Of a DNA stretch of 28,279 nt, positions 2,058 to 28,279 are shown piece by piece. The stretch covers positions 1-28,279 of the IMG/VR virus record IMGVR_UViG_3300027710_000107. One strand, given 5' to 3'. Positions within the stretch are counted from its first letter, which is position 1. Each line of letters opens with the position of its first letter. The DNA is from a virus. The position numbers and the translations under genes were made by a program. Below the pieces are notes generated by a model. It was not told the DNA's origin. It worked only from the letters and a program-made list of their open reading frames with translations, and made no database searches.

Positions 2058-2294
2058 TTTACGATAGAATTACGACAAACCATTATAAGTTATTGATTTA
2101 TAACAATTGCAACTGCCCTCCGAAGGCAGGGGTCGTGGGTTCGAATCCCGCTGGGCGCGCCAATAAAATCAAGGGTTTCAAGCAATACCAACACTTCTAA
2201 ATCTAATCTTGTCGTAAATTTGTCGTTAATCCTCTTTTTAAAAGAAGGTTAATGCAGTAAATTGTCGAACCGTTTACGACAAAATTACGACAAC
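2058..2294 (+). promoter_or_regulatory. Integrase arm-type binding repeats around the att core
   Basis: Repeats of a TTACGACAAA-like element lie on both sides of the core: ATTTACGATAG (2058-2067), ATTACGACAAA (2069-2079), inverted TTGTCGTAAATT (2209-2220), inverted TTTGTCGTTAAT (2219-2230), and a tandem TTTACGACAA/ATTACGACAA (2273-2293). Tyrosine integrases of the lambda/P2 type bind such arm sites through their N-terminal domain while the catalytic domain binds the core. The last pair lies at or inside the start of int, so integrase could repress its own expression. Confidence 0.65.
2111..2162 (+). other. attP: Phage attachment site core: 3' half of a tRNA-Arg(CCG) gene
   Basis: Contains the anticodon arm (CTGCC, loop CTCCGAA with anticodon CCG, GGCAG; 2113-2129), variable region, T arm with GGGTTCGAATCCC, and the 3' acceptor strand ending in CCA (2160-2162). 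The matching 5' acceptor strand (expected GCGCCCA) and D arm are absent from the ~100 bases upstream, so this is not a complete tRNA gene. It is the segment a phage carries to restore the host tRNA-Arg after integration. Phage genes and integrase arm sites on both sides indicate an attP-type arrangement. Confidence 0.85.
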
Positions 2295-3311
2295 ATGAAA
2301 TTACCAAAACCAAGAAAGCGTGGCGACTCATGGCTTATTGAGTTTATGCTCAACGGTCATCGTTACTCTGCAACACGAGATACACAATTAGAAGCTAAAG
2401 ATTGGGCAATGCGCGAAATTGTCAGATTAAAAGACGATGCAAAGCGAACTAGCGCGGGTGAGCTACCAAGCCACACTTTAAAAGAATTATGTAGCGTTTA
2501 TCTACTAAAAGTCACAAAGCATAAAAAAGGCCATGACTCAGAAAGTAAACGCATTAACGCGCTATTAACCAATTACCCAAAACTGGCTAATAAAACACTA
2601 GAAACTATCGCCCCAAAAGATATTATTTTTTGGAAAAACGACAGGCTCAAATTAGTAGCAGACAGCACAGTTAAGCGCGAATTAAACTTGCTATCGTCAA
2701 TTTTTAGCTACGGCATTAAAGAAATGCTTTGGCTGCACAATAATCCAGTATCTAAAGTTACCAAGCCAAGCGAAGCAAAACCGCGATGCAGGCGCATATC
2801 TCAAGATGAAATAGCAGTGATATTAAATGCCTGCGGTTATATAAAAGGCGAGATACCCACTACTCAACGTCATTTTGTCGCATGGTGTTTCTTGTTTGCG
2901 ATTGAGACAGCGATGAGGGCAGGCGAGATACTTAGTCTAAAGTGGGTGAATGTGTACAATGACTTTGTTGTGTTGCCTGATACGAAAAATGGCTCTAAAA
3001 GAGAAGTGCCGTTGTTACCATCAGCCATAGAATTAATAGGATTGGTGAAGGGAATAGATAAAGCGCAAGTCATGCCGCTATCTAGCGACAGTCTGAAGAA
3101 GATATTTAAGCGGGTTATTGATAGTGTTGCTATTGAAAATATGACTTTTCACGACACGCGACATGAAGCGACAACGCGACTAGCTCAATTGCTTGACGTG
3201 AAAGATTTGAGCAAGGTAACGGGTCATAAAGATATTAACGTACTTGTTAATACCTACTATAACCCGACTGCAAGTGAATTGGCGGCAAAAATGAGAAGAA
3301 AAGCGGGGTAG
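2262..3311 (+). CDS. int: Tyrosine-recombinase phage integrase
   Basis: Catalyses site-specific recombination between phage and host att sites. The catalytic set is visible: Arg in ETAMRAGEIL (R219), Lys in KNGSKREVP (K246), His and Arg in FHDTRHE (H297, R300), His in VTGHKDI (H322) and nucleophile Tyr in NTYYNP (332/333). The N-terminal part holds an arm-binding-like beta region (residues 18-60) and a SAM-like core-binding domain (70-165). Two starts compete: TTG 2262 (349 aa) and ATG 2295 (338 aa). The first 11 codons of the longer form are made of arm-site repeats, and AGAAGG at 2243-2248 is 13 nt from TTG, so ATG 2295 is equally plausible. The gene directly follows the tRNA-Arg core and converges on the HTH gene. 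Confidence 0.93.
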   Translation: MSNRLRQNYDNMKLPKPRKRGDSWLIEFMLNGHRYSATRDTQLEAKDWAMREIVRLKDDAKRTSAGELPSHTLKELCSVYLLKVTKHKKGHDSESKRINALLTNYPKLANKTLETIAPKDIIFWKNDRLKLVADSTVKRELNLLSSIFSYGIKEMLWLHNNPVSKVTKPSEAKPRCRRISQDEIAVILNACGYIKGEIPTTQRHFVAWCFLFAIETAMRAGEILSLKWVNVYNDFVVLPDTKNGSKREVPLLPSAIELIGLVKGIDKAQVMPLSSDSLKKIFKRVIDSVAIENMTFHDTRHEATTRLAQLLDVKDLSKVTGHKDINVLVNTYYNPTASELAAKMRRKAG

Positions 3312-5785: not shown

Positions 5786-6160
5786 AGCTATCAAGTCCAG
5801 TGCTTCAATTTTGGCTAGTGTCGATTCCTGCCAGCCATCAAGCCAATCACACTCAAGCGGAGTATATGGAGAGCCGTAACACTCACTCAAAATACAAAAA
5901 GCATTTCTATGCTTTAGCCAAACAGCTTCGACAACAGATGTTTGCCATTTAACCAATATGTGCCGATCCTTCGGCGCGGTATTCATCGCTTGCCATGCTT
6001 CTAAATCACCACTTTGTTTTACAACAGCAACAGGAATTGCAGGTCTTAAATCAATGCCTTCTAAACCCACGTCATCACCTCGACTGGTTGATAAATAAAA
6101 ACTACTTACGGTAGTCACTCGGCATTTAGTATCTGCCACAGCATCACGCGCCACAGTCAT
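5780..6160 (-). CDS. DUF551-like phage protein
   Basis: The C-terminal ~75 residues match the DUF551 pattern: WQAMNTAPKDRHILVKW, then FCILSECYG and WLDGW. DUF551 domains are common at the ends of variable early-region proteins of temperate phages (Ea22/Ead-like) and their function is unknown. The N-terminal ~55 residues (MTVARDAVADTKCRVTTVSS...) are unlike any domain I know. ATG 6160 lacks a clear ribosome site, so the true start may be internal. Early leftward operon. Confidence 0.55.
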   Translation of the reverse strand: MTVARDAVADTKCRVTTVSSFYLSTSRGDDVGLEGIDLRPAIPVAVVKQSGDLEAWQAMNTAPKDRHILVKWQTSVVEAVWLKHRNAFCILSECYGSPYTPLECDWLDGWQESTLAKIEALDLIAQ

Positions 6161-6233
6161 CAGGTTCTAGCACTGGTACTGCAAACAGCATTACGCATTA
6201 GCTAGACATAACGTGTGGTGAGTCGTGATTTGG

Positions 6234-6264
6234 TAATAAAAAACCCACTGCTAGGAGTGGGTTT
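6234..6264 (-). terminator. Rho-independent terminator after the antirepressor gene
   Basis: On the minus strand: AAACCCACT, loop CCTAGC, AGTGGGTTT, then a T run and ATTA. It lies ~40 nt beyond the BRO-N gene stop. A smaller hairpin (CCCC, TTTTT, GGGG; 6285-6297) sits between the stop and this terminator. Confidence 0.85.
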
Positions 6265-6302
6265 GGTTGAGAAACTAGGTTTACCCCCAAAAAGGGGAAA
6301 AC

Positions 6303-7037
6303 TCAAATAGTGGTATTTATTGCATGGCGAAATCTATCACCCATATCAATCTGCATTTTCCCTTGTTCTTGAACCAGTAACGCATTTAGCTCATGCGGCA
6401 ACTCCTTCATGTTGTTGCGCATAAATGCACGTTCAATAGCAAACACCCCATTTTTGAGCTTTGAACTTTCGATAGCCATGTCTTTTAATCGGCGTTGCGC
6501 TTCGGGAAAAAATACAACTGGCATATTGGCCGCAGGTAAGCCGCCAGATAGTTCACGCATCACACGCCATGCCCACCATTCAGCACTTTGTTTCAGATGA
6601 AAGGCATTGGCAATGCAATCAACCATGTACGATAGTTCTCGGTACTGTTTTGGACTAATAGGTTCAACAGATGGCTTAGGTGGTTGCGGTATCGTGTAGC
6701 TGCCAGTTTTGCGTATGCTTGGCAAGACTTCGGACGTTACCCACTTTTTGAACTTCTTGGCTTCGGGTTTGCGGCTTTTCAGAATGGCAGAATAAAGGCC
6801 GCTTTCGTTGATAACGGTCATTTGTTGATTGCCAGAGGGGGTACTCACATTGTGAGTACCCTTTTCATCGTCATCTAAAAAGCGAGTCATATTAGCAGCA
6901 TCACGATATTCAAGTGCGGCTGCAACATCGCCAGCAACGAACCAAGGGTTACCGTCAATAACGATAACGCGAACATCAAAAGAGGGTTGGAATTGAAATA
7001 CAGAAACGGCGGACGAATTTTGGCTAGAGTTAGTCAT
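6303..7037 (-). CDS. ant: BRO-N domain phage antirepressor
   Basis: 244 aa from ATG 7037, which has GAGG at the usual distance (GAGGTCATTATG). The frame is open further upstream to 7172, but that stretch is the RNA leader. Residues ~10-112 form a BRO-N domain: FDVRVIVIDGNPWFVAGDVA, NMTRFLDDDEKGTH, VINESGLYSAILKSRKPEAKKFKKWVTSEVLPSIRKTGSY (in parts). Bro-N proteins of temperate phages act as antirepressors or DNA-binding regulators. The C-terminal half (~140-244) is helical and is not a KilAC or P22AR domain that I recognise. The gene has its own promoter, RNA leader and terminator, like the C4-controlled ant genes of P1/P7 and relatives. Confidence 0.8.
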   Translation of the reverse strand: MTNSSQNSSAVSVFQFQPSFDVRVIVIDGNPWFVAGDVAAALEYRDAANMTRFLDDDEKGTHNVSTPSGNQQMTVINESGLYSAILKSRKPEAKKFKKWVTSEVLPSIRKTGSYTIPQPPKPSVEPISPKQYRELSYMVDCIANAFHLKQSAEWWAWRVMRELSGGLPAANMPVVFFPEAQRRLKDMAIESSKLKNGVFAIERAFMRNNMKELPHELNALLVQEQGKMQIDMGDRFRHAINTTI

Positions 7038-7275
7038 AATGACCTCGTGTTTAAACAGATTATAAACCTGCCCCAAACCGTCAAATTTGGGTGGCAGACT
7101 GAACAGGGTTGACGGACTGGTAAACACGAACCAGCAAGCCCGAAGGCTTCCCCATTCAGCCAACCATAACACGGGTGTAGCTGAACGATACGCAATAAAA
7201 AACCGCTTAACGCGGTATTTGCGTGTGTTTACTTATCAGGCCGTCAAACCTGCCTGCCCGATGTGGGGCATTGCA
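7038..7275 (-). ncRNA. C4-like antisense RNA / leader of the antirepressor gene
   Basis: The transcript from the promoter at 7279-7307 would contain GGTTTGACGG (minus strand, ~7240-7252), a terminator hairpin (7193-7218), then a ~150-nt leader with CCGTCAACCC and TTTGACGGTTTGGGGCAGG before the ant start. GGTTTGACGG is complementary to CCGTCAACC apart from one bulged base, so the 5' RNA can pair with the ant leader. In one frame the leader encodes VYQSVNPVQSAT, the signature of Icd-like ORFs found in C4 loci. In P1/P7 the C4 RNA silences ant this way. Boundaries are estimates. Confidence 0.5.
7193..7218 (-). terminator. Terminator/attenuator inside the ant leader
   Basis: On the minus strand: ACCGC, loop GTTAA, GCGGT, then TTTTTTATTG. 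It lies between the leader promoter (7279-7307) and ant, so it can end a short RNA upstream of ant. Confidence 0.8.
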
Positions 7276-7278
7276 ATC

Positions 7279-7307
7279 ATCATAGTCATAAGTTTGTTTT
7301 CCGTCAA
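7279..7307 (-). promoter_or_regulatory. Promoter for the antirepressor leader RNA
   Basis: On the minus strand: -35 TTGACG (7302-7307), 17-bp spacer, -10 TATGAT (7279-7284). It sits downstream of HU and upstream of the C4-like region. Confidence 0.7.
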
Positions 7308-7347
7308 TAAAACATTTACCCACTCGCAAGAATGGATAAAGGTCTTA

Positions 7348-7363
7348 GCCCTCAAAAGAGGGC
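7348..7363 (-). other. Small hairpin after the HU gene
   Basis: GCCCTC, loop of four bases, GAGGGC, 9 nt past the HU stop. Similar hairpins follow the BRO-N gene (6285-6297) and the first leftward gene (10591-10608). None has a U tract, so they are more likely RNA 3'-end or processing structures than terminators. Confidence 0.55.
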
Positions 7364-7371
7364 ATGGACTG

Positions 7372-7644
7372 CTACATAACCGCGTCTTTCAATCCTTTAC
7401 CTGCTTTGAATTGCGGTGTTTTACTCGCAGCAATAGGGATTGTTTCACCAGTCTTAGGGTTACGCCCAGTGCGTGCGGCTCTATCCTTAACGCTAAAAGA
7501 GCCAAAGCCAACAAGGGTTACATCTTCACCACGCGCTAAGGCATTGGTGATATTGGCTGTTACCGCATCAAGCAACTTGGCGGCTTTCTCTTGTGAGACT
7601 TCAACATCTTCGGCAATTGCTTTAACTAAATCTGACTTGTTCAT
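7372..7644 (-). CDS. hup: HU-family DNA-binding protein
   Basis: 90 aa from ATG 7644 (MNKSDLVKAIAE), which has AGAG upstream. Upstream in-frame codons to 7737 do not match HU and are excluded. The full HU fold is present: N-terminal helices (DLVKAIAEDVEVSQEKAAKL), then VTLVGFGSFSVKDRAARTGRNP with the DNA-intercalating arm (RNPKTGETI), ending KTPQFKAGKGLKDAV. HU bends and compacts DNA and assists site-specific recombination and replication initiation. Phage-encoded copies are known. Here it may assist integrase, the origin or repressor loops. It is followed by a hairpin and then the ant leader promoter. Confidence 0.9.
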   Translation of the reverse strand: MNKSDLVKAIAEDVEVSQEKAAKLLDAVTANITNALARGEDVTLVGFGSFSVKDRAARTGRNPKTGETIPIAASKTPQFKAGKGLKDAVM

Positions 7645-21693: not shown

Positions 21694-22410
21694 ATGAGTC
21701 AAGGACAATTAGATTTAAACATAGAAGATCAGGCCGCACAGTGCGCGGAAGAGGCCGAGCTGCTGGCTCAAGAAATTGTTGCGGCCATTGTTGAGGAAAA
21801 TAAAAAGCCACGTAAAGAGCCTACTGAGTTTGAAAAAATGGTGGCTGAACGCTTTGTAAAGGCGCGTAACTTAAATGGGCTAAAACCTCATGAAGCTGCT
21901 CTAAAAATGCGGATTAGAAATAAAAAGGTATTGTCGCAAATAGAAAATGCTCATCGCCTACCCACGAATAAAATGTTGGTGATCGCGGCTAATGCCTATG
22001 GGGTGAGTGCTGATTTTTTACTGGGGATGTCAGAGGATGATGACAGAAGCTCTAGTATTGCTACCCGTGCAGCAATTGATCGTCAGCTTGAGGCTAAATT
22101 CAATATCGTGAAAAAAGTGTTGGCAGATACTACCTATGACTATGCAAAAGCCGTCAATGATTTTACGGTGCGCGAAATGGTAAATGTCGTCGAAGAGGTA
22201 TGCCTGAAGTTTAATCGGTTCTGTGAGTTGAATCCTATTTTTTTAGATATGCGTGCAGGCGCACCTGTTCAAGATTTAATGTTGACTCTCATGCCTTTGA
22301 CGAGAAAGGTGAAGAACGATATTCAAAAAAGGGAAGGGCTAATTGATTTGCACAATCAACAGCTTGATAGCTTGGTGCAACGCCAGTTATTTGGAGCGAT
22401 GAATGGCTAA
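21694..22410 (+). CDS. HTH (XRE) regulator, 238 aa
   Basis: ATG 21694 is chosen because AAGGGG lies 8-10 nt upstream; ATG 21676 has no ribosome site. The N-terminal ~40 residues are acidic (EEAELLAQEIVAAIVEE). An XRE-type HTH spans ~48-115 (ARNLNGLKPHEAALKMRIRNKKVLSQIE, then AANAYGVSADFLLG). The C-terminal 120 residues are helical (LEAKFNIVKKVL, VREMVNVVEEVCLKF) and may oligomerise. It lies directly before the small terminase gene (8-nt overlap), so it may control late gene expression or terminase activity. That role is inferred from position. Confidence 0.7.
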   Translation: MSQGQLDLNIEDQAAQCAEEAELLAQEIVAAIVEENKKPRKEPTEFEKMVAERFVKARNLNGLKPHEAALKMRIRNKKVLSQIENAHRLPTNKMLVIAANAYGVSADFLLGMSEDDDRSSSIATRAAIDRQLEAKFNIVKKVLADTTYDYAKAVNDFTVREMVNVVEEVCLKFNRFCELNPIFLDMRAGAPVQDLMLTLMPLTRKVKNDIQKREGLIDLHNQQLDSLVQRQLFGAMNG

Positions 22411-23281
22411 GTCATACTCACCTGACGTTTGGAAGGCGATTAAGCGGTATTGGGAAAATAACCCTAAAGCCAGTTACAACGATGCGGCTAAATCAATAGG
22501 TACGGATGCCCCCAGTAAAGCCGCCGTTGCCAAGAGAGCGGTCGAAGAGCGTTGGTCAAAAAAGAGCAACCAAGATATTCAAAAACGTGCCGATATTGAA
22601 GGTGTTTTCCGTCAAGTTGACGATGAAGAAAGTTCGCAAGTTGACGCTCAAGTTGACGGTGTTGACGATGAGAATGACCGTCAAGTTGACGGTGAATCAG
22701 ATAAGAAAAACCATGCTCAAAGCCTTGCTATCATTAACAATAAGGCGAAGCGTAAGGCTGATTTAAAGCAATCCCAAGTTGACGCTCAAGTTGACGGTTT
22801 AGCAGGTTTAATCGCGTCGAACGCCAAGTTGACGGATGAAGAGGTTGACGAAATATGTGCTGACTTTAGAGCGGGTATTTTACAAAAGCATCGAGGCGAT
22901 TTTGACCAGATAGATGCGGTCGTTAATACGTGTGTTGGTCTGTTTAAAAAGGCGATGGATGCCATTGCCAGTGGGGGATACGCTAACGAAAACGATGTGA
23001 TTGATGGTGATGGGTTTGTACATGTTAATTTAATGAATAATTTGAAGCTGGCAGACGCGACGATTAAATCGATGTTTAACGTAACGTTAATTAAAACGAA
23101 TAAGCAAAATAATGAGCGCAAATCTTACGGCCTAGACACCTATGAAGAGCCTAACAGTGGGGGAGACTTGGCTAAAAAGGCATTGAGTCAGACAGGCATG
23201 GGTAATCACTATGAGCGGATTAGATTGGGTAAGCCTGATGAGAAGACGCTACTGAGGGATAGGTTGAAGGGGGCTATTTAA
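22403..23281 (+). CDS. terS: Small terminase subunit-like protein with internal repeat tract
   Basis: 292 aa, ATG 22403. The N-terminal ~52 residues form an HTH-like domain (SPDVWKAIKRYWENNPKAS, NDAAKSIGTDAP), typical of small terminase or packaging DNA-binding subunits. Residues ~70-135 are an acidic, low-complexity region rich in QVD, encoded by the CAAGTTGACG repeats. The C-terminal half (~140-290) is helical with an acidic-basic mix. No ATPase motif is present, so it is not the large subunit. Large terminase does not follow. A different phage HTH protein remains possible. Confidence 0.6.
   Translation: MAKSYSPDVWKAIKRYWENNPKASYNDAAKSIGTDAPSKAAVAKRAVEERWSKKSNQDIQKRADIEGVFRQVDDEESSQVDAQVDGVDDENDRQVDGESDKKNHAQSLAIINNKAKRKADLKQSQVDAQVDGLAGLIASNAKLTDEEVDEICADFRAGILQKHRGDFDQIDAVVNTCVGLFKKAMDAIASGGYANENDVIDGDGFVHVNLMNNLKLADATIKSMFNVTLIKTNKQNNERKSYGLDTYEEPNSGGDLAKKALSQTGMGNHYERIRLGKPDEKTLLRDRLKGAI
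22613..22850 (+). repeat. Seven-copy CAAGTTGACG repeat array in the terminase gene (possible pac site)
   Basis: Exact copies start at 22613, 22637, 22649, 22682, 22775, 22787 and 22825, with shorter TTGACG copies at 22662 and 22845. Pairs 22637/22649 and 22775/22787 are both 12 nt apart. Arrays within terS genes are the known location of pac sites in headful-packaging phages such as P22 and SPP1. Confidence 0.7.
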
Positions 23282-23550
23282 ATGCGCAAAATAGTCATCG
23301 CGGTTGTGGTCAAACAAGCGTGAATTATGTGGGCGAGATCAAAAGAGAAACATCCACCTTTGCAAGAGATAACTTTTGTGGCTTTTTAGAGCAGTTTGAA
23401 TCCTGATGACTTGGTACGTGCATGACATGTGGCTACGTGGTTAACACGATAAGCTGTATAGATCTTTGCAAATCTAATTCTATTAAAAAATGTACGGCAG
23501 TGCCTTGGAAATTAGGAGGAAACCATAGAGCAAAAGTTAGGTTATTGCGA
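23282..23550. other. Gap after the small terminase gene: no convincing gene
   Basis: A 13-codon ORF (ATG 23282) overlaps a 28-codon GTG ORF (23320-23406), and a 64-codon ORF (23422-23616) overlaps the lipoprotein gene on the other strand. None has a good ribosome site or a recognisable domain. GTTAGGT at ~23537-23543 could be an attC R-box for the cassette array to its right. Large terminase sequence is not seen. Confidence 0.4.
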
Positions 23551-24120
23551 TTAGTAACAATTTGCTGCCACTGTAACAAGTTCTTGTTGTTCTTCACTTA
23601 TGAAGCCAACAAATGAATAAGGAATAGCATAACGCCAATCATTCATTCGACAATCTACATCACGTTTTTGCAAGTCAACTCCATTGATAGCCGCTCCTCC
23701 CAATTTTTTATAATCAAGAAATGCTTCTTCTTTTACATTATTAAAACTGACAATAATACTTCTTGCAGCAGAATCATTATTATGTTCGGATTGTGTACTA
23801 CTTTTTTGTTCTATTACTTGTTCATTTTGGGCATTCGTTACTTTCTCTAATGCATCAAGAAACACGTATACTGCAGCCATTTTCTTAAATGGTACTGACT
23901 CAAGAAATTCATTGCTTCTTCGTATTTGATTTTTCTGCTCTTCATTTTCATCAGAGAATCGACTTATACGATCTGAAGATTGAATGGCATAATCATTCCG
24001 TTGCTTATCTGGAAATCCAATATTTTCCTGAGCATTAATACTGTCACTTTTTGTACATTCATTACATTCTTTGCTGCATCCTGAAATAGCAAAAGCAATT
24101 ATTAAAGCTAACAATCGCAT
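23551..24120 (-). CDS. Cassette-borne lipoprotein, 189 aa
   Basis: ATG 24120 with GGAGG upstream; the frame opens further to 24270 but that part is the attC-like site. N-terminus MRLLALIIAFAISGC is a lipoprotein signal with lipobox ISGC (Cys15), followed by CNEC. The mature protein is charged and helical (~40-90), with a C-terminal beta-type domain (RSIIVSFNNVKEEAFLDYKK, DWRYAIPYSFVGFI). No family is recognised. It is preceded by an attC-like site and is the last ORF of the leftward cassette array. The AT content exceeds that of the phage genes. Confidence 0.6.
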   Translation of the reverse strand: MRLLALIIAFAISGCSKECNECTKSDSINAQENIGFPDKQRNDYAIQSSDRISRFSDENEEQKNQIRRSNEFLESVPFKKMAAVYVFLDALEKVTNAQNEQVIEQKSSTQSEHNNDSAARSIIVSFNNVKEEAFLDYKKLGGAAINGVDLQKRDVDCRMNDWRYAIPYSFVGFISEEQQELVTVAANCY

Positions 24121-24135
24121 TTTTACCTCCATACA

Positions 24136-24256
24136 ATCTAACTGCAAAACTAACGGGTAACAACCCATAAAAAAATCAAAACGTGCAAGGTTGCCAAAAA
24201 TATAAAAATGAGAAGTAATTGGCTGGGTTGGTATCCTGTTGAGTGCAAAGTCAGAC
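24136..24256 (-). repeat. attC: attC-like recombination site A (121 bp)
   Basis: On the minus strand: R'' GTCTGAC (24250-24256), then TTTGCACTCAACAGGATACC, imperfectly complementary to the other arm, and R' GTTAGAT (24136-24142). The arms pair over ~30 nt and end with ACCCA/TGGGT pairing. Inner TAATTGGCT is shared with site B. It ends directly before the lipoprotein ribosome site. Confidence 0.65.
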
Positions 24257-24418
24257 GAGCACAACTCCAAAACCTAACAAACAAAAACTGTGCCATGAAA
24301 GCCTCATATTCCGATAATGCCTTAAAAATATCAAACCAACAACAATCATGTTTAGAGTTTTTTGACGAAATAAATTAAATGACCAAAACTCCAAACATTC
24401 ATCATAAAAACAGCACAT
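24251..24418 (-). CDS. Possible cassette ORF, 55 aa, ending inside attC-like site A
   Basis: ATG 24418 to TGA 24251-24253. The TGA is part of the R'' box GTCTGAC of site A, a hallmark of cassette genes. The peptide is hydrophobic and Cys-rich (MCCFYDECLEFW, then MIVVGLIFL and CLLGFGVVLV). No Shine-Dalgarno sequence is obvious, so expression is unproven. Confidence 0.4.
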   Translation of the reverse strand: MCCFYDECLEFWSFNLFRQKTLNMIVVGLIFLRHYRNMRLSWHSFCLLGFGVVLV

Positions 24419-24483
24419 TGGCGATGGCTAAAGACCAAAAATTCAAGCAAAATGTCATCTTGACTGTTGACTAGCCACGTTTT

Positions 24484-24548
24484 GGCTAACAAACTAAAAA
24501 ACTTACCTGATGACTGGGGTGTGTTCCTAATTGATTGCTGAGTTAGAT
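24484..24548 (-). repeat. attC: attC-like site C (65 bp), weaker match
   Basis: On the minus strand: R'' ATCTAAC (24542-24548) and R' GTTAGCC (24484-24490), 65 bp apart, a length like the 60-bp attC of aadA cassettes. The inner boxes are poorly complementary. On the plus strand it directly precedes the ribosome site of the gene at 24566. Confidence 0.4.
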
Positions 24549-24565
24549 GCGTAAAGGAGATGACA

Positions 24566-24832
24566 ATGAAGAAAAGATATAGAAAACCCGTTGCTAAGGA
24601 TAGCGAACTACTTGCCAAGTACGGGAAAGATGGCGGTGACGAAGATTTATTTTATTGCTACCCAGACAACGAATATGGCATGAAAAAAGATAGCAAAATG
24701 TTAATGATCGCATTTGAGCACACAAAAATTCTTGATGATAAAACATTACGGCAAGAGCTTGAATTGCGCGGCTATGATATTACGACACTGACTTTTTCGA
24801 TAAAAAAGAAATCCGTCAAACTACCCGCATAA
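24566..24832 (+). CDS. Hypothetical cassette protein, 88 aa
   Basis: ATG 24566 has AAGGAG 6 nt upstream; ATG 24560 overlaps that site. The protein is basic with acidic patches (KKRYRKPVAKDSELLAKYG, DEDLFYCYPDNEYG), then MLMIAFEHTKIL and a C-terminal LELRGYDITTLTFSIKKK. No signal peptide and no known family. It is the only rightward gene of the accessory block and converges with the next gene, so it is inverted relative to the other cassettes. Confidence 0.6.
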   Translation: MKKRYRKPVAKDSELLAKYGKDGGDEDLFYCYPDNEYGMKKDSKMLMIAFEHTKILDDKTLRQELELRGYDITTLTFSIKKKSVKLPA

Positions 24833-24847
24833 GTAGCAGGCACCCAC

Positions 24848-25318
24848 TTACCATTTTCTTGTGCTCTTAATTCTATGCTTACCTTCATACTGCAAAACAC
24901 TTTTAGAATAAAGTGATTTAGAAAAGTTATACATACCTACGCAAAATATACATATCCATAAAGAGTACCCAAATATGTAGTCAAAAATTGGAATTTTATA
25001 TTTTGGTAACGGGGTAGGTAAAAATCCGCCAGCTTGTAATTTTTTAATCTTTTCATCATTCAATTGGTAATATTTTTTAGGATCTCTATTACTTGATATT
25101 ATATATCCTTGGTCTTTCAAATATACTCCTGCTAAAAAGAAATGAGCGGTAGTTCTATAGCCTAAATAAACAGGCTCATTATTTATTTTTAATGAATTTC
25201 CAGTTATTTCTTGGATTTTATGTAAATTATCATGTTTTCCAAAAGCGACAGCATAAGCAGATGTAGACACAAAAAGCAACGCGAGAAAACAGAAAACCAT
25301 TCCGTTAAATATCCGCAT
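24848..25318 (-). CDS. Exported membrane-anchored cassette protein, 156 aa
   Basis: ATG 25318 with AGGGG 8 nt upstream; in-frame codons to 25345 are not needed. Signal peptide MRIFNGMVFCFLALLFVSTSAYA in part (cleavage after AYA). Exported domain with GNSLKINNEPVYLGYRTTAH and GVYLKDQGYIISSNRD. A C-terminal transmembrane segment (FDYIFGYSLWICIFCVGMY) and basic tail follow. No family is recognised. A shared upstream element at 25361-25379 may be a cassette boundary. Confidence 0.6.
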   Translation of the reverse strand: MRIFNGMVFCFLALLFVSTSAYAVAFGKHDNLHKIQEITGNSLKINNEPVYLGYRTTAHFFLAGVYLKDQGYIISSNRDPKKYYQLNDEKIKKLQAGGFLPTPLPKYKIPIFDYIFGYSLWICIFCVGMYNFSKSLYSKSVLQYEGKHRIKSTRKW

Positions 25319-25360
25319 TAAATTTCCCCTCAAAATCGCACGCACAACAACAGGCCGAAA

Positions 25361-25379
25361 TGTAACTTAGTATTAGACT
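25361..25379 (-). repeat. Element shared with 26524-26541, possible degenerate attC end
   Basis: On the minus strand GTCTAATACTAAGTTACA. The copy near 26530 reads GTCTATACTAAGTTAGAC. Both lie upstream of leftward ORFs. Confidence 0.4.
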
Positions 25380-25397
25380 ATATATAAAACAGGAAAA

Positions 25398-25859
25398 TTA
25401 ATGACAAAAAGATCGAATATCATTTTTGGCAGTATTTATATCGTTTTGATCTGTTGGAGCACCATTTTTGTGTTTTACAGCACCACTAATAACATTACGA
25501 GCAAGCCTGCAATCCGATGTGTCACGACTCTCTGGTGCTTCATGAGGCAGTGTAAGTGGACGAATATTATTCTTCATAAAAACAGGCGGGCGAGATTTTT
25601 GCATATTATTAAGCTTGTCTATTATGTCTTTCACTTGCTCAGTCGATGACTTTTGAGGTTGCGTACTAGCCGATGCTGGCGGAGCTGCAACTTTTACATT
25701 TATGATTTTAGACTCACCAGCATCCTCTTTATTTTCAGAGTAATGTGTATGGCCATTTGCATCGACCCATTTAAATATTTCCGCATAGCAAGTTGGAGCA
25801 AAAAAGATAAGAGCTAAGTAGGCACTTAATATGCCACGATTTATACTTGAACCTTTCAT
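25398..25859 (-). CDS. DUF4124-domain exported protein, 153 aa
   Basis: The start is set at ATG 25859 (signal peptide start MKGSSINRG); longer frames run into the attC-like site. Signal peptide with cleavage near CYA, then the DUF4124 core EIFKWVDANGHTHYSENKED (residues 27-46). A Pro/Ser/Gln-rich linker and a charged tail with paired cysteines (SDCRLARNV and SFCH) follow. DUF4124 proteins are periplasmic, often thiol-containing, with unknown function. It lies between attC-like site B and the next cassette ORF. Confidence 0.7.
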   Translation of the reverse strand: MKGSSINRGILSAYLALIFFAPTCYAEIFKWVDANGHTHYSENKEDAGESKIINVKVAAPPASASTQPQKSSTEQVKDIIDKLNNMQKSRPPVFMKNNIRPLTLPHEAPESRDTSDCRLARNVISGAVKHKNGAPTDQNDINTAKNDIRSFCH

Positions 25860-25891
25860 GTACATTAACTCATATTTCATCATTAACACAT

Positions 25892-26006
25892 GTCTAACTA
25901 CTCGCGTAAGGAGCAAGCACCAGAAGCGAGATTAAAAAGAAAGCCGTAATCACAGCTTTCAAAAATTGCACAATAATTGGCTAAGTGCTTGAGGCGCAAG
26001 TTAGAC
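25892..26006 (-). repeat. attC: attC-like recombination site B (115 bp)
   Basis: On the minus strand: R'' GTCTAAC (26000-26006) with the stop codon of the DUF1877 gene inside it, and R' GTTAGAC (25892-25898). The plus-strand arms GTCTAACTACTCGCG..GCAAGCAC and GTGCTTGAGGCGCAAGTTAGAC pair well, including the GCAAGCAC/GTGCTTG inner boxes. Inner TAATTGGCT is shared with site A. Confidence 0.7.
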
Positions 26007-26510
26007 GTAGTAGAAAAGCATTACTTGTTCTTTCTGAGCTGCATTTATAAAATAATCTGACAATGTCTCAAATGAACCCAATAACGTCTCAAAATAAGAC
26101 TCGTTACCAAACTCTTTGCCATGATATATTTCTTCTTCCGTACCTTTAATTTCTAGTTTTGATTTAAACTCAGTTGAATTAAATCTACGTCTAAACTCTT
26201 CAACACTAAATCTTTTTAATTTTTCTGCTATGCGTTTCACGTCAATAACCTCAAGATAAAACGCGTCTACTTCATCAAGGAAATGTGCCGCATCCAAATA
26301 ATCAAGGGATACAGTGTTATCAAACTCCTCCCCGTAATCATTTTCATCAAACCAATTATTAATTAAAAAATTAACCGCATCAAACTCATAGTCTAAACCA
26401 CAAGCATCATCTTCAGCATCATCGGTGATCTCTTCATAAACATCACTATCCTCGTGGATCTGTTCTAGCTGCTCTTTTGAAATCGCTACAAAATACATTC
26501 CCATGCCCAT
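26001..26510 (-). CDS. DUF1877 family cassette protein, 169 aa
   Basis: ATG 26510 with GGAG 7 nt upstream. It starts MGMGMYFVAISKEQLEQI, the DUF1877 signature. The protein is acidic, with VNFLINNWFDEN, FDNTVSLDYLDAAHFLDEV and the conserved end FETLSDYFINAAQKEQVMLFYYV (in parts). Function is unknown; DUF1877 genes are frequent among integron cassettes and next to defence or toxin genes (from memory). The stop TAA is part of the attC-like R'' box, as in typical cassettes. It is the rightmost gene of the array. Confidence 0.75.
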   Translation of the reverse strand: MGMGMYFVAISKEQLEQIHEDSDVYEEITDDAEDDACGLDYEFDAVNFLINNWFDENDYGEEFDNTVSLDYLDAAHFLDEVDAFYLEVIDVKRIAEKLKRFSVEEFRRRFNSTEFKSKLEIKGTEEEIYHGKEFGNESYFETLLGSFETLSDYFINAAQKEQVMLFYYV

Positions 26511-26523
26511 GACTTTACTCCAA

Positions 26524-26588
26524 GTCTAACTTAGTATAGACACCTACCGTAATGTGTCTGTTGAATTTTCCATAGGTGTATAACACAT
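26524..26588 (-). repeat. Half attC-like site before the DUF1877 gene
   Basis: R'-type box GTTAGAC (minus strand, 26524-26530) followed outward by TATAGACACCTA, which pairs with TAGGTGTATA at ~26573-26583. The other R'' box is not found. It may be a truncated site or the array's entry point. Confidence 0.4.
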
Positions 26589-26877
26589 TTTCTCAGTCGT
26601 ATCGAATCGAATTTAAAGAAAATGTATTTTGTAATTGGACTATTGCGAACATCAAACACACCTAAATAAATTGGCATTTTAGTATGTAATTAACTGAATA
26701 AAATCAGTAAGTGCTAACACATTTATAAAACTATAACCTATTGTTTTTTATATATATTAAAAAAACACACCTGCGGGTGACAAGGATAAGCCGTAAAAGT
26801 TTGACAAACATCCCAACGATAAAATACCCGCACAGTTGTAACCCCATAAAAGTGGAGGAGTGCATTTAATCCATAAT
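26531..26877. other. AT-rich intergenic stretch without a gene
   Basis: No ORF of interest. TTGACA at 26801-26806 and TAAAAT at 26820-26825 are only 13 bp apart, so they are not a standard promoter. GTGGAGGAG at ~26852 resembles a ribosome site, but only a 19-codon GTG frame follows it and runs through the terminator. Confidence 0.5.
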
Positions 26878-26904
26878 AAGCCTATCCACCCGATAGGCTT
26901 TTTT
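26878..26904 (+). terminator. Rho-independent terminator directly before the baseplate gene
   Basis: Stem GCCTATC (26880-26886), loop CACCC, GATAGGC (26892-26898), T run to 26904. The next start codon is at 26906. Confidence 0.9.
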
Positions 26905-26905
26905 C

Positions 26906-27223
26906 ATGTTCACGCTTAACCCTAACGCGCAAAGCACAGCCATCAATGCCGAAGATATACAAGGCATGATAACCCATTGGCTTGCTACGCCCGTGAACGG
27001 CTATCTGGGCAGCGATTACGGCTGTGATGCTAAGTCACTACTGCAAAAAGCCTTACATTCAGGCATAGCAGATGCATTTATTGCCAAGATGAAAAAAGAC
27101 ATTCCTATCCTAAGCGTTATCCCCCAAGAAAATATCAGCCTGTATTCCATTCCAGAGCTACCCGACAAATTACGTTTATTTATCGCCATTGCAGGTATCA
27201 CCACGGTAGAGATTAACCCATGA
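26906..27223 (+). CDS. gpW/gp25-like baseplate wedge protein, 105 aa
   Basis: Residues 15-60 (EDIQGMITHWLATPVNGYLGSDYGCDAKSLL in part) follow the gp25/W pattern: a helix leading into TP-x-x-G-x-x-x-x-x-YG. The C-terminal region (ELPDKLRLFIAIAGITTVEI) ends in the beta strands seen in that family. gpW/gp25 is the lysozyme-like structural subunit at the baseplate. ATG 26906 directly follows the terminator T run with no ribosome site; ATG 26966 has AAGG only 3 nt before it. The 4-nt overlap with the next gene fits the W-J order of P2-like tails. Confidence 0.55.
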   Translation: MFTLNPNAQSTAINAEDIQGMITHWLATPVNGYLGSDYGCDAKSLLQKALHSGIADAFIAKMKKDIPILSVIPQENISLYSIPELPDKLRLFIAIAGITTVEINP

Positions 27224-28279
27224 CCACGAAAGCCCAATTTCTAGCCGCCGCCAGTGTTGAATTAGCCAATCCGCAATATGGCAAGATTGCCGCACTGTAT
27301 CAGGCACAAGACCCGCGCATTGTCGCGTCTATTGGCGCAATGGCTCAAATGCTGGAGATGTACAGTGTTCAGCAAGACTTAGCCGAAACAGAGGTATTCA
27401 TTAAAGCGCGTGATGCCACCGTCTTAGCCGATGCCACCTTAAAAGGGATTTTACCCTTGGCCAAGTCAGCCCAAGTACACGCCTTAGTGACGAACCCAAG
27501 TAGTAACCCGATTACCTTAGCCTACGGTCGGCGGTTATTGGATGATAAGGGGCGAGTGTGGCGCGTGGCCGCTACCTTAGTGGTTGCCGCCAATGGCACA
27601 GGTACGTTATTACTTAATCAAAACGAACTACGCACCATTAGCCATACCATCGCCAATGATGATCCGTTCTACACCATCACCTTGGCCAACAATGACGAAG
27701 GGCTTTATTTAGAAAACATTCGCATCAAGGACACGATAGGCAGTACCGACAACCTGTACGCCTATGCCCCTGAGTTTATGAATGTCTTGAACGGGGCGCG
27801 TGTCTATCACCTTGAAACAGACGAAGCACGGCAAGTCACGATTAGACTAGGCGCACAAGACGGAGCAAGCCTTGTCTATGGCTTTCAGCCACCCGTCAAC
27901 ACGGTACTCACCATTGAGTTGACCGAAACATCGGGACAGTTAGCCATTGGTACAGGGGCGAGCTTTAGCCTTGAGTACAGTAATAACGCCAATGAGGACG
28001 CATTAAAAATTGTTTCTACGGGTGTTAATTCATTGGGTAGCAATCCCTTATCGTTGCCCGTGTTGCGCCTGTTATCACGCTATAACGCCTTGTATGACCA
28101 TGATGCGGTTTACCTATCAGACTTTGATTTTTTAATCAGGCGTTATCACGGTGACAGCATTAACTTTTTAGCGGTCTGGAATGAGCAAGTACACGAACAA
28201 GTCCACGGTTATAGTGCTGCCAATATCAATAAGCTATTTATTGCCGTACAAGCGAAAGACACACTGGAGCAAAGTAATC
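27220..28279 (+). CDS. Baseplate J-like structural protein (3' end outside window)
   Basis: ATG 27220 overlaps the previous stop (ATGA); the frame stays open to the window edge (353 codons visible). The N-terminal helical region (QFLAAASVELANPQYGKIAALYQAQ, EVFIKARDATVLADATLKGIL in part) resembles the start of phage baseplate J-type proteins, which contact W. A long beta-rich region follows, then VSTGVNSLGSNPLSLPVLRLLSRY and YLSDFDFLIRRYHGDSINFLAVW. The W-J neighbourhood supports the call, although other baseplate proteins are possible. GC and codon use differ clearly from the cassette block just upstream. Confidence 0.6.
   Translation, partial: MTTKAQFLAAASVELANPQYGKIAALYQAQDPRIVASIGAMAQMLEMYSVQQDLAETEVFIKARDATVLADATLKGILPLAKSAQVHALVTNPSSNPITLAYGRRLLDDKGRVWRVAATLVVAANGTGTLLLNQNELRTISHTIANDDPFYTITLANNDEGLYLENIRIKDTIGSTDNLYAYAPEFMNVLNGARVYHLETDEARQVTIRLGAQDGASLVYGFQPPVNTVLTIELTETSGQLAIGTGASFSLEYSNNANEDALKIVSTGVNSLGSNPLSLPVLRLLSRYNALYDHDAVYLSDFDFLIRRYHGDSINFLAVWNEQVHEQVHGYSAANINKLFIAVQAKDTLEQSN

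Follow-up and report, generated by a model that had tools for sequence, protein, structure and literature searches.

The window analysed here, a 28,279-base IMG/VR virus record of metagenomic type, is a fragment of a phage genome. Between a terminase small subunit-like gene and a group of baseplate genes it carries a slot (23535-26544) whose genes lie mostly on the minus strand; phage genes flank this slot on both sides, so that the array within it lies inside the phage genome. An earlier note on this DNA had described an integron-type cassette array between small terminase and baseplate genes, richer in A+T than the phage. The phrog matches on either side confirmed this location, and the G+C content (35.1% in 23535-26544 vs 43.2% in 1-23280) agreed with the stated composition. 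To score attC sites we used a covariance model, R1, built from eight aligned attC sites of the chromosomal integron of Agitococcus lubricus DSM 5822 (Moraxellaceae), the bearer of the closest named phage relative, with none taken from the window. The features of the slot and its flanks are as follows.

22403 to 23281, plus strand: terminase small subunit-like gene, left phage flank of the slot (phrog_1206, E=5e-6; phrog_7533)
23535 to 23541, minus strand: R''-like box ACCTAAC, a bare box past the lipoprotein gene, read from the sequence and with no model support
23551 to 24120, minus strand: distal cassette gene for a 189-aa lipoprotein-like protein (ORF; no Pfam family above the cut-off)
24136 to 24256, minus strand as cassette top strand, plus strand as folded bottom strand: attC site with degenerate R'' (R1 55.6 bits, E=4.7e-12; alignment with chromosomal attC sites)
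24480 to 24548, minus strand: decayed attC-like site (R1 12.6 bits, E=0.45, not significant alone)
24560 to 24832, plus strand: 90-aa ORF, opposite to the cassette direction (no Pfam family)
24848 to 25318, minus strand: gene for a 156-aa membrane-type protein (ORF; no Pfam family)
25360 to 25378, minus strand: second attI-like copy with a damaged R box, GTCTAATACTAAGTTACAT (pattern match with two mismatches, 0 expected by chance; alignment)
25398 to 25859, minus strand: DUF4124 cassette gene (PF13511, E=3.2e-12; 82%-identical cassette in genome G034)
25892 to 26006, minus strand as cassette top strand, plus strand as folded bottom strand: attC site (R1 57.6 bits, E=1.5e-12; R''/R' pairing 7/7)
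26001 to 26510, minus strand: first cassette gene, DUF1877 (PF08974, E=4.5e-16; stop codon within R'')
26524 to 26544, minus strand: putative attI core, GGTGTCTATACTAA followed by GTTAGAC (matches in L001, L002, L132, L133, prophage L092 and the intI-adjacent attI of G007)
26524 to 26683, minus strand: wider putative attI module (83% identical to L001; also common to a chromosomal island of G007, by alignment with L091)
26906 to 28279, plus strand: baseplate genes, right flank, truncated by the end of the record (phrog_4683, E=1.2e-30; phrog_1369, E=2.6e-78)

The integrase of the window (2262-3311) is of phage type (phrog_1), and a search of the entire record for the integron integrase family TIGR02249 returned no match, in line with the earlier statement that none is visible. 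Blastn tuned for distant matches found nothing similar to 22403-28279 in annotated phage and plasmid collections, and a pattern scan of IMG/VR found no relatives of the small terminase protein; a homologue 42% identical is encoded in a prophage of Agitococcus (L006), likewise upstream of the slot. Elsewhere in the window, a C4 antisense RNA (7087-7171, minus strand; Rfam RF01695, 75.1 bits) sits at the start of a long ORF (6303-7172) that looks like an antirepressor-type gene. It was the only Rfam match in the window at gathering thresholds, and none of attC type was returned.

attC sites and cassette genes

A. lubricus encodes an intact integron integrase (TIGR02249, 468.8 bits), beside whose gene lie attC sites about 125 bp long. 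The independently built R1 recovered, to the exact coordinates, both window sites for which an attC layout had been proposed, 1.6 kb apart and each with E~1e-12. Although these E-values are rough, as the tool itself warns, the gap in bits is large: the weaker site scores 55.6 against 13.3 for the next-best match in the window (E=0.29). Across 377 kb of other loci, nothing outside arrays scored above 18.5 bits, and a scan of IMG/VR with an attC-core pattern returned no match. R1 strongly preferred one strand at both sites (57.6 vs 10.6 bits at 25892-26006; 55.6 vs 11.2 bits at 24136-24256); since the cassettes read on the minus strand, the bottom strand usable by IntI is the window plus strand. 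In the imperfect stem formed by R''/R' and L''/L', the end boxes are intact and paired 7/7 at 25892-26006 (GTCTAAC...GTTAGAC), and R'' is degenerate at 24136-24256 (ATCTAAC...GTCAGAC). Both sites contain TAATTGGCT, the shared central sequence already noticed. The attC family to which they belong is that of Moraxellaceae integrons with intact IntI.

In an alignment of 66 sites of this family, pairing in the two stems is 82.7% and doubly changed cells number 131 vs 56 in shuffles; sliding the partners lowers pairing to 31-53%. These figures are biased towards the structure because the alignment was fitted to the model. Folding of the bottom strands, suggested in the earlier note along with the model search, gave a result of intermediate strength: the window sites fold moderately better than shuffles (z -2.3 and -2.7 at one site, -1.9 and -1.7 at the second), and folding energy supports them less than two Agitococcus attC sites folded in the same way (z -4.3 to -5.0).

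The expected relation between genes and sites was found in most respects. The DUF1877 gene takes its stop codon from R'' as had been claimed (TAA, 26003-26001, minus strand); at the second site support for this claim is weak, as the ORF ending at the TGA is only ~55 aa long. Counted from R', the next ORF starts after 33 bp in the case of DUF4124 and after 16 bp in that of the lipoprotein, and the Pfam matches listed above bear out the DUF1877 and DUF4124 assignments. A copy of the DUF4124 gene, 82% identical in nucleotide sequence, lies among other genes in the Moraxellaceae genome G034, flanked on both sides by attC-like sites (21.0 and 21.6 bits), and the homology is restricted to window positions 25400-25905, a stretch that starts at the stop codon and ends within the R' side of the attC. 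The DUF4124 gene is thus a true cassette, and it alone among the window genes was found elsewhere as a separable unit with attC boundaries; nine attC-bearing genomes yielded a single relative of DUF1877 (28%) and none of the 156-aa protein. The attC expected after DUF4124 is decayed or lost, and the ACCTAAC box at 23535-23541 is possibly the remnant of another lost attC. That the slot holds an ordinary moron block with chance palindromes for sites has virtually no probability and is contradicted by the model search: cargo slots are common between phage modules and the Agitococcus prophage has non-cassette genes in its slot, but E~1e-12 by an independent model, a shared cassette between attC-like sites and an attI are set against it.

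Close relatives and the head of the array

When the window was compared with relatives, as the earlier note had proposed, close ones were found to keep the putative attI yet to carry different cargo beyond it. The baseplate proteins of two other phage sequences, L001 and L002, are 98% and 94-95% identical, respectively, to those of the window. L001 matches the window at ~95% identity over the baseplate region and at 83% over the attI module; the similarity ends at 26522, which is the end of attI. Past this point L001 has genes for DUF3800 and T5orf172 and a single attC (72.3 bits), of the family found in the window, whose R' is decayed, and L002 continues after GTTAGAC with a third, different sequence. 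The remainder of the L001 phage has no nucleotide similarity to the window, and a longer attI-flank pattern matched only L002/L007 in IMG/VR. PADLOC reported no defence gene among the cargo of the window or of L001. In L001, the ORFs at 6081-7352 and 7349-7558, which adjoin baseplate and tail genes, look by eye like the exonuclease VII subunits xseA and xseB. The Agitococcus prophage L006, whose baseplate is 80% identical, has terS and baseplate in the same order with other genes in the slot, where R1 finds no attC.

These relatives also bear on whether a fragment of a bacterial integron might have been joined to a phage contig during assembly. The window is a fragment and a metagenomic-type virus record, as such a chimera might be, but it is highly unlikely to be one: terS and baseplate surround the slot in the same order in L006, and L001 and L002, which come from other assemblies, show the same link between attI and baseplate gene.

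On the minus strand the head of the array reads GGTGTCTATACTAAGTTAGAC, and the same position reads GGTGTCTAATACTAAGCTAGGC in L001 and GGTGTCTAATACTGAGTTAGAC in L002. The Moraxellaceae genome G007 has the exact core, GGTGTCTAATACTAAGTTAG, directly upstream of a divergently transcribed intI; on the other side of the core come a cassette ORF and then an attC belonging to the same family, which is the canonical integron layout of intI, attI, cassette and attC. With up to two mismatches allowed, the core occurs among 249 family genomes only in G007 (three times) and G138 (once); matches with three mismatches were ignored because the control, the same pattern read backwards, matches at least as often. 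Judged by this likeness, 26524-26544 is attI-like and not half an attC. The earlier note had listed it as a half-site; within the same series of weak and half sites, 25360-25378 is the second attI-like copy, 23535-23541 is a bare R''-like box, and the weaker 65-bp site is not significant on its own. L001 has a comparable second copy at about 923. In both the window and L001 the second copy stands behind the second cassette, and simple cassette insertion leaves it unexplained. The third core of G007 (L091 7178-8891; G007:C47) heads cassettes beside a type I restriction-modification island, and the module upstream of it matches the phage attI module.

The head might instead be another kind of recombination site, for instance a Xer/dif-type module, in which case the array would have been moved by another recombinase. 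It is consistent with this that L035 aligns with the phage attI sites in a core of ~20 bp only, and that the phage copies share a longer module with the L091 island. In G007, however, the same core occupies the position between intI and the first cassette, and in five of the other places found it heads an attC array; a dif-like module was rejected on these grounds, and we leave the explanation a slim chance.

Other phages and genomes with the same sites

A scan of IMG/VR for the exact core returned L132 and L133 in addition to L002. In both, attC arrays adjoin the core, and both are otherwise unlike the window except for short L133 matches; L132 has terminase, endolysin and SSB genes. In G007, six sites follow the core in a prophage (L092) whose portal and terminase genes are P22-like. 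The arrays of attI and attC extend over 7109-10057 in L092, 4577-8084 in L132 and 1704-2968 in L133.

In these three arrays the longest ORF is reversed with respect to the cassette direction in 15/15 inter-site intervals, matching phage transcription, whereas forward ORFs prevail in chromosomal arrays with this attC family (~24 to 3, by our own reading of the same table). The contrast (Fisher p ~8e-9 on that tally) is a lead and not a test, since the intervals are non-independent, some sites score 21-37 bits and the tally was made after the pattern had been seen. Some reversed ORFs start inside an attC (L133 2644-2952, L092 7816-8127, L032 2657-3148), which thus encodes part of the N-terminus (LASDLNRELG, LASHLTQELG, VASDLNAELG).

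Scattered attC sites of the same family occur in the Moraxellaceae genomes G015, G062, G034, G048 and G149, with no IntI match at E<=1e-40; those of G015 lie at six places, several of them single. The earlier suggestion to search the host for IntI and the same cassettes was answered at the level of the family: IntI with matching attC and attI occurs in the Moraxellaceae, and the DUF4124 cassette in one of their genomes; no genome was found with both the window's phage and an IntI.

Proposed loading in trans and comparison with known systems

The attC model, the attI match and the differing cargo in relatives all support the integron-type reading of the earlier note, whose own refuting condition (no attC hits, and relatives with an ordinary moron block) turned out the opposite way, and we regard it as nearly certain that the region is an integron cassette array. 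Our preferred interpretation, with a probability of about 0.75, is that 23535-26544 is a CALIN with its own attI and without integrase, carried by a temperate phage and loaded in trans by a host IntI. Because baseplate genes instead of intI lie beside attI, it is not classed as a complete integron. On the minus strand the order would be attI (26544-26524), the DUF1877 cassette, attC, the DUF4124 cassette, the second attI-like scar, the membrane-protein gene with decayed material, attC and the lipoprotein cassette. IntI joins double-stranded attI to the folded bottom strand of attC at G^TTRRRY. An IntI encoded by the host chromosome would most likely bind attI on the phage, together with the attC bottom strands in folded form (window plus strand), and join the two at G^TTRRRY, whereby cassettes would be inserted, excised and replaced in the phage, which would then ferry them into new hosts. 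Both substrates are present in the phage, where no enzyme is visible; related hosts possess the enzyme together with the same sites. The simplest explanation is a host IntI that works on the phage attI in trans. The host is likely a member of the Moraxellaceae related to Agitococcus, G007 or G034. Recombination by IntI in trans and its current activity are inferred, as are the host's identity and whatever benefit the cargo may bring.

Ongoing exchange of cassettes by host IntI in trans seems probable from the sequences compared. Its main rival is a frozen relic: one or a few acquisitions through homologous or illegitimate recombination with a host integron would have brought in attI and a cassette block, exchange would have ended, and the relatives would differ through replacement of entire blocks in ordinary phage mosaicism. 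The decayed R'' of one attC, the decayed R' of the L001 attC and the attC lost behind DUF4124 agree with this and imply that much of the array may be inactive; moreover, the attI module is common to a chromosomal island to ~130 bp upstream, and elsewhere in the phage group the slot is simply occupied by other genes. On the other hand, three close relatives retain the attI core and diverge right after the crossover point, and 25892-26006 is intact, with R pairing 7/7. We therefore hold the relic to be unlikely, if a serious contender, and retain loading by a host IntI as the better reading.

A wider proposal is more tentative, and we would put it forward as a possibility short of an expectation: a group of Moraxellaceae phages may have domesticated the integron, which would serve them as a cargo port free of any integrase, with a phage attI beside the early/late gene junction loaded by host IntI in trans. 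The arrays of L092, L132 and L133 would then be phage-adapted, their genes reversed to read with phage transcription and some starting inside attC, and most cargo of the window lineage would still face in the chromosomal direction. Matching attI and attC, a shared cassette and relatives with different cargo tie a phage lineage to a bacterial gene-capture system, and the reappearance of such arrays in other members of the phage group points to a habit and not an accident. If host IntI loads the phage attI, phages would be direct cassette shuttles between cells, with cargo renewable through host machinery.

The kind of element is already known, as phage-borne CALINs, one with its own attI, have been published. 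In 10,705 phage genomes Qi et al. 2023 (PMC9892861) found 17 CALINs, three complete integrons and one In0. They demonstrated IntI1-mediated recombination between phage attC sites and attI1, and they described in the Shewanella prophage M16-3 a CALIN with its own attI; in a literature searched only in part we found nothing closer. Like those phage CALINs, the array lies in a phage without an adjacent intI and has attC sites of its host group's type. As in M16-3, attI heads the array and structural phage genes surround it, but M16-3 also has a complete integron with IntI, whereas the window has no intI, its near relatives differ in the cargo that follows the same attI, and other phages carry the core too. 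The chromosomal integrons of A. lubricus and G007 share the attC family, and that of G007 the attI core as well; in these intI adjoins attI, and the phage array is short and without intI. In common with a phage moron or cargo slot, the region holds AT-rich, oppositely transcribed, variable genes between conserved modules; unlike in such a slot, the gene boundaries in the window are attC and attI recombination sites. What is newer here is that close relatives differ in cargo at one phage attI and that this attI is met again in other phages; the arrays of reversed genes may be newer as well.
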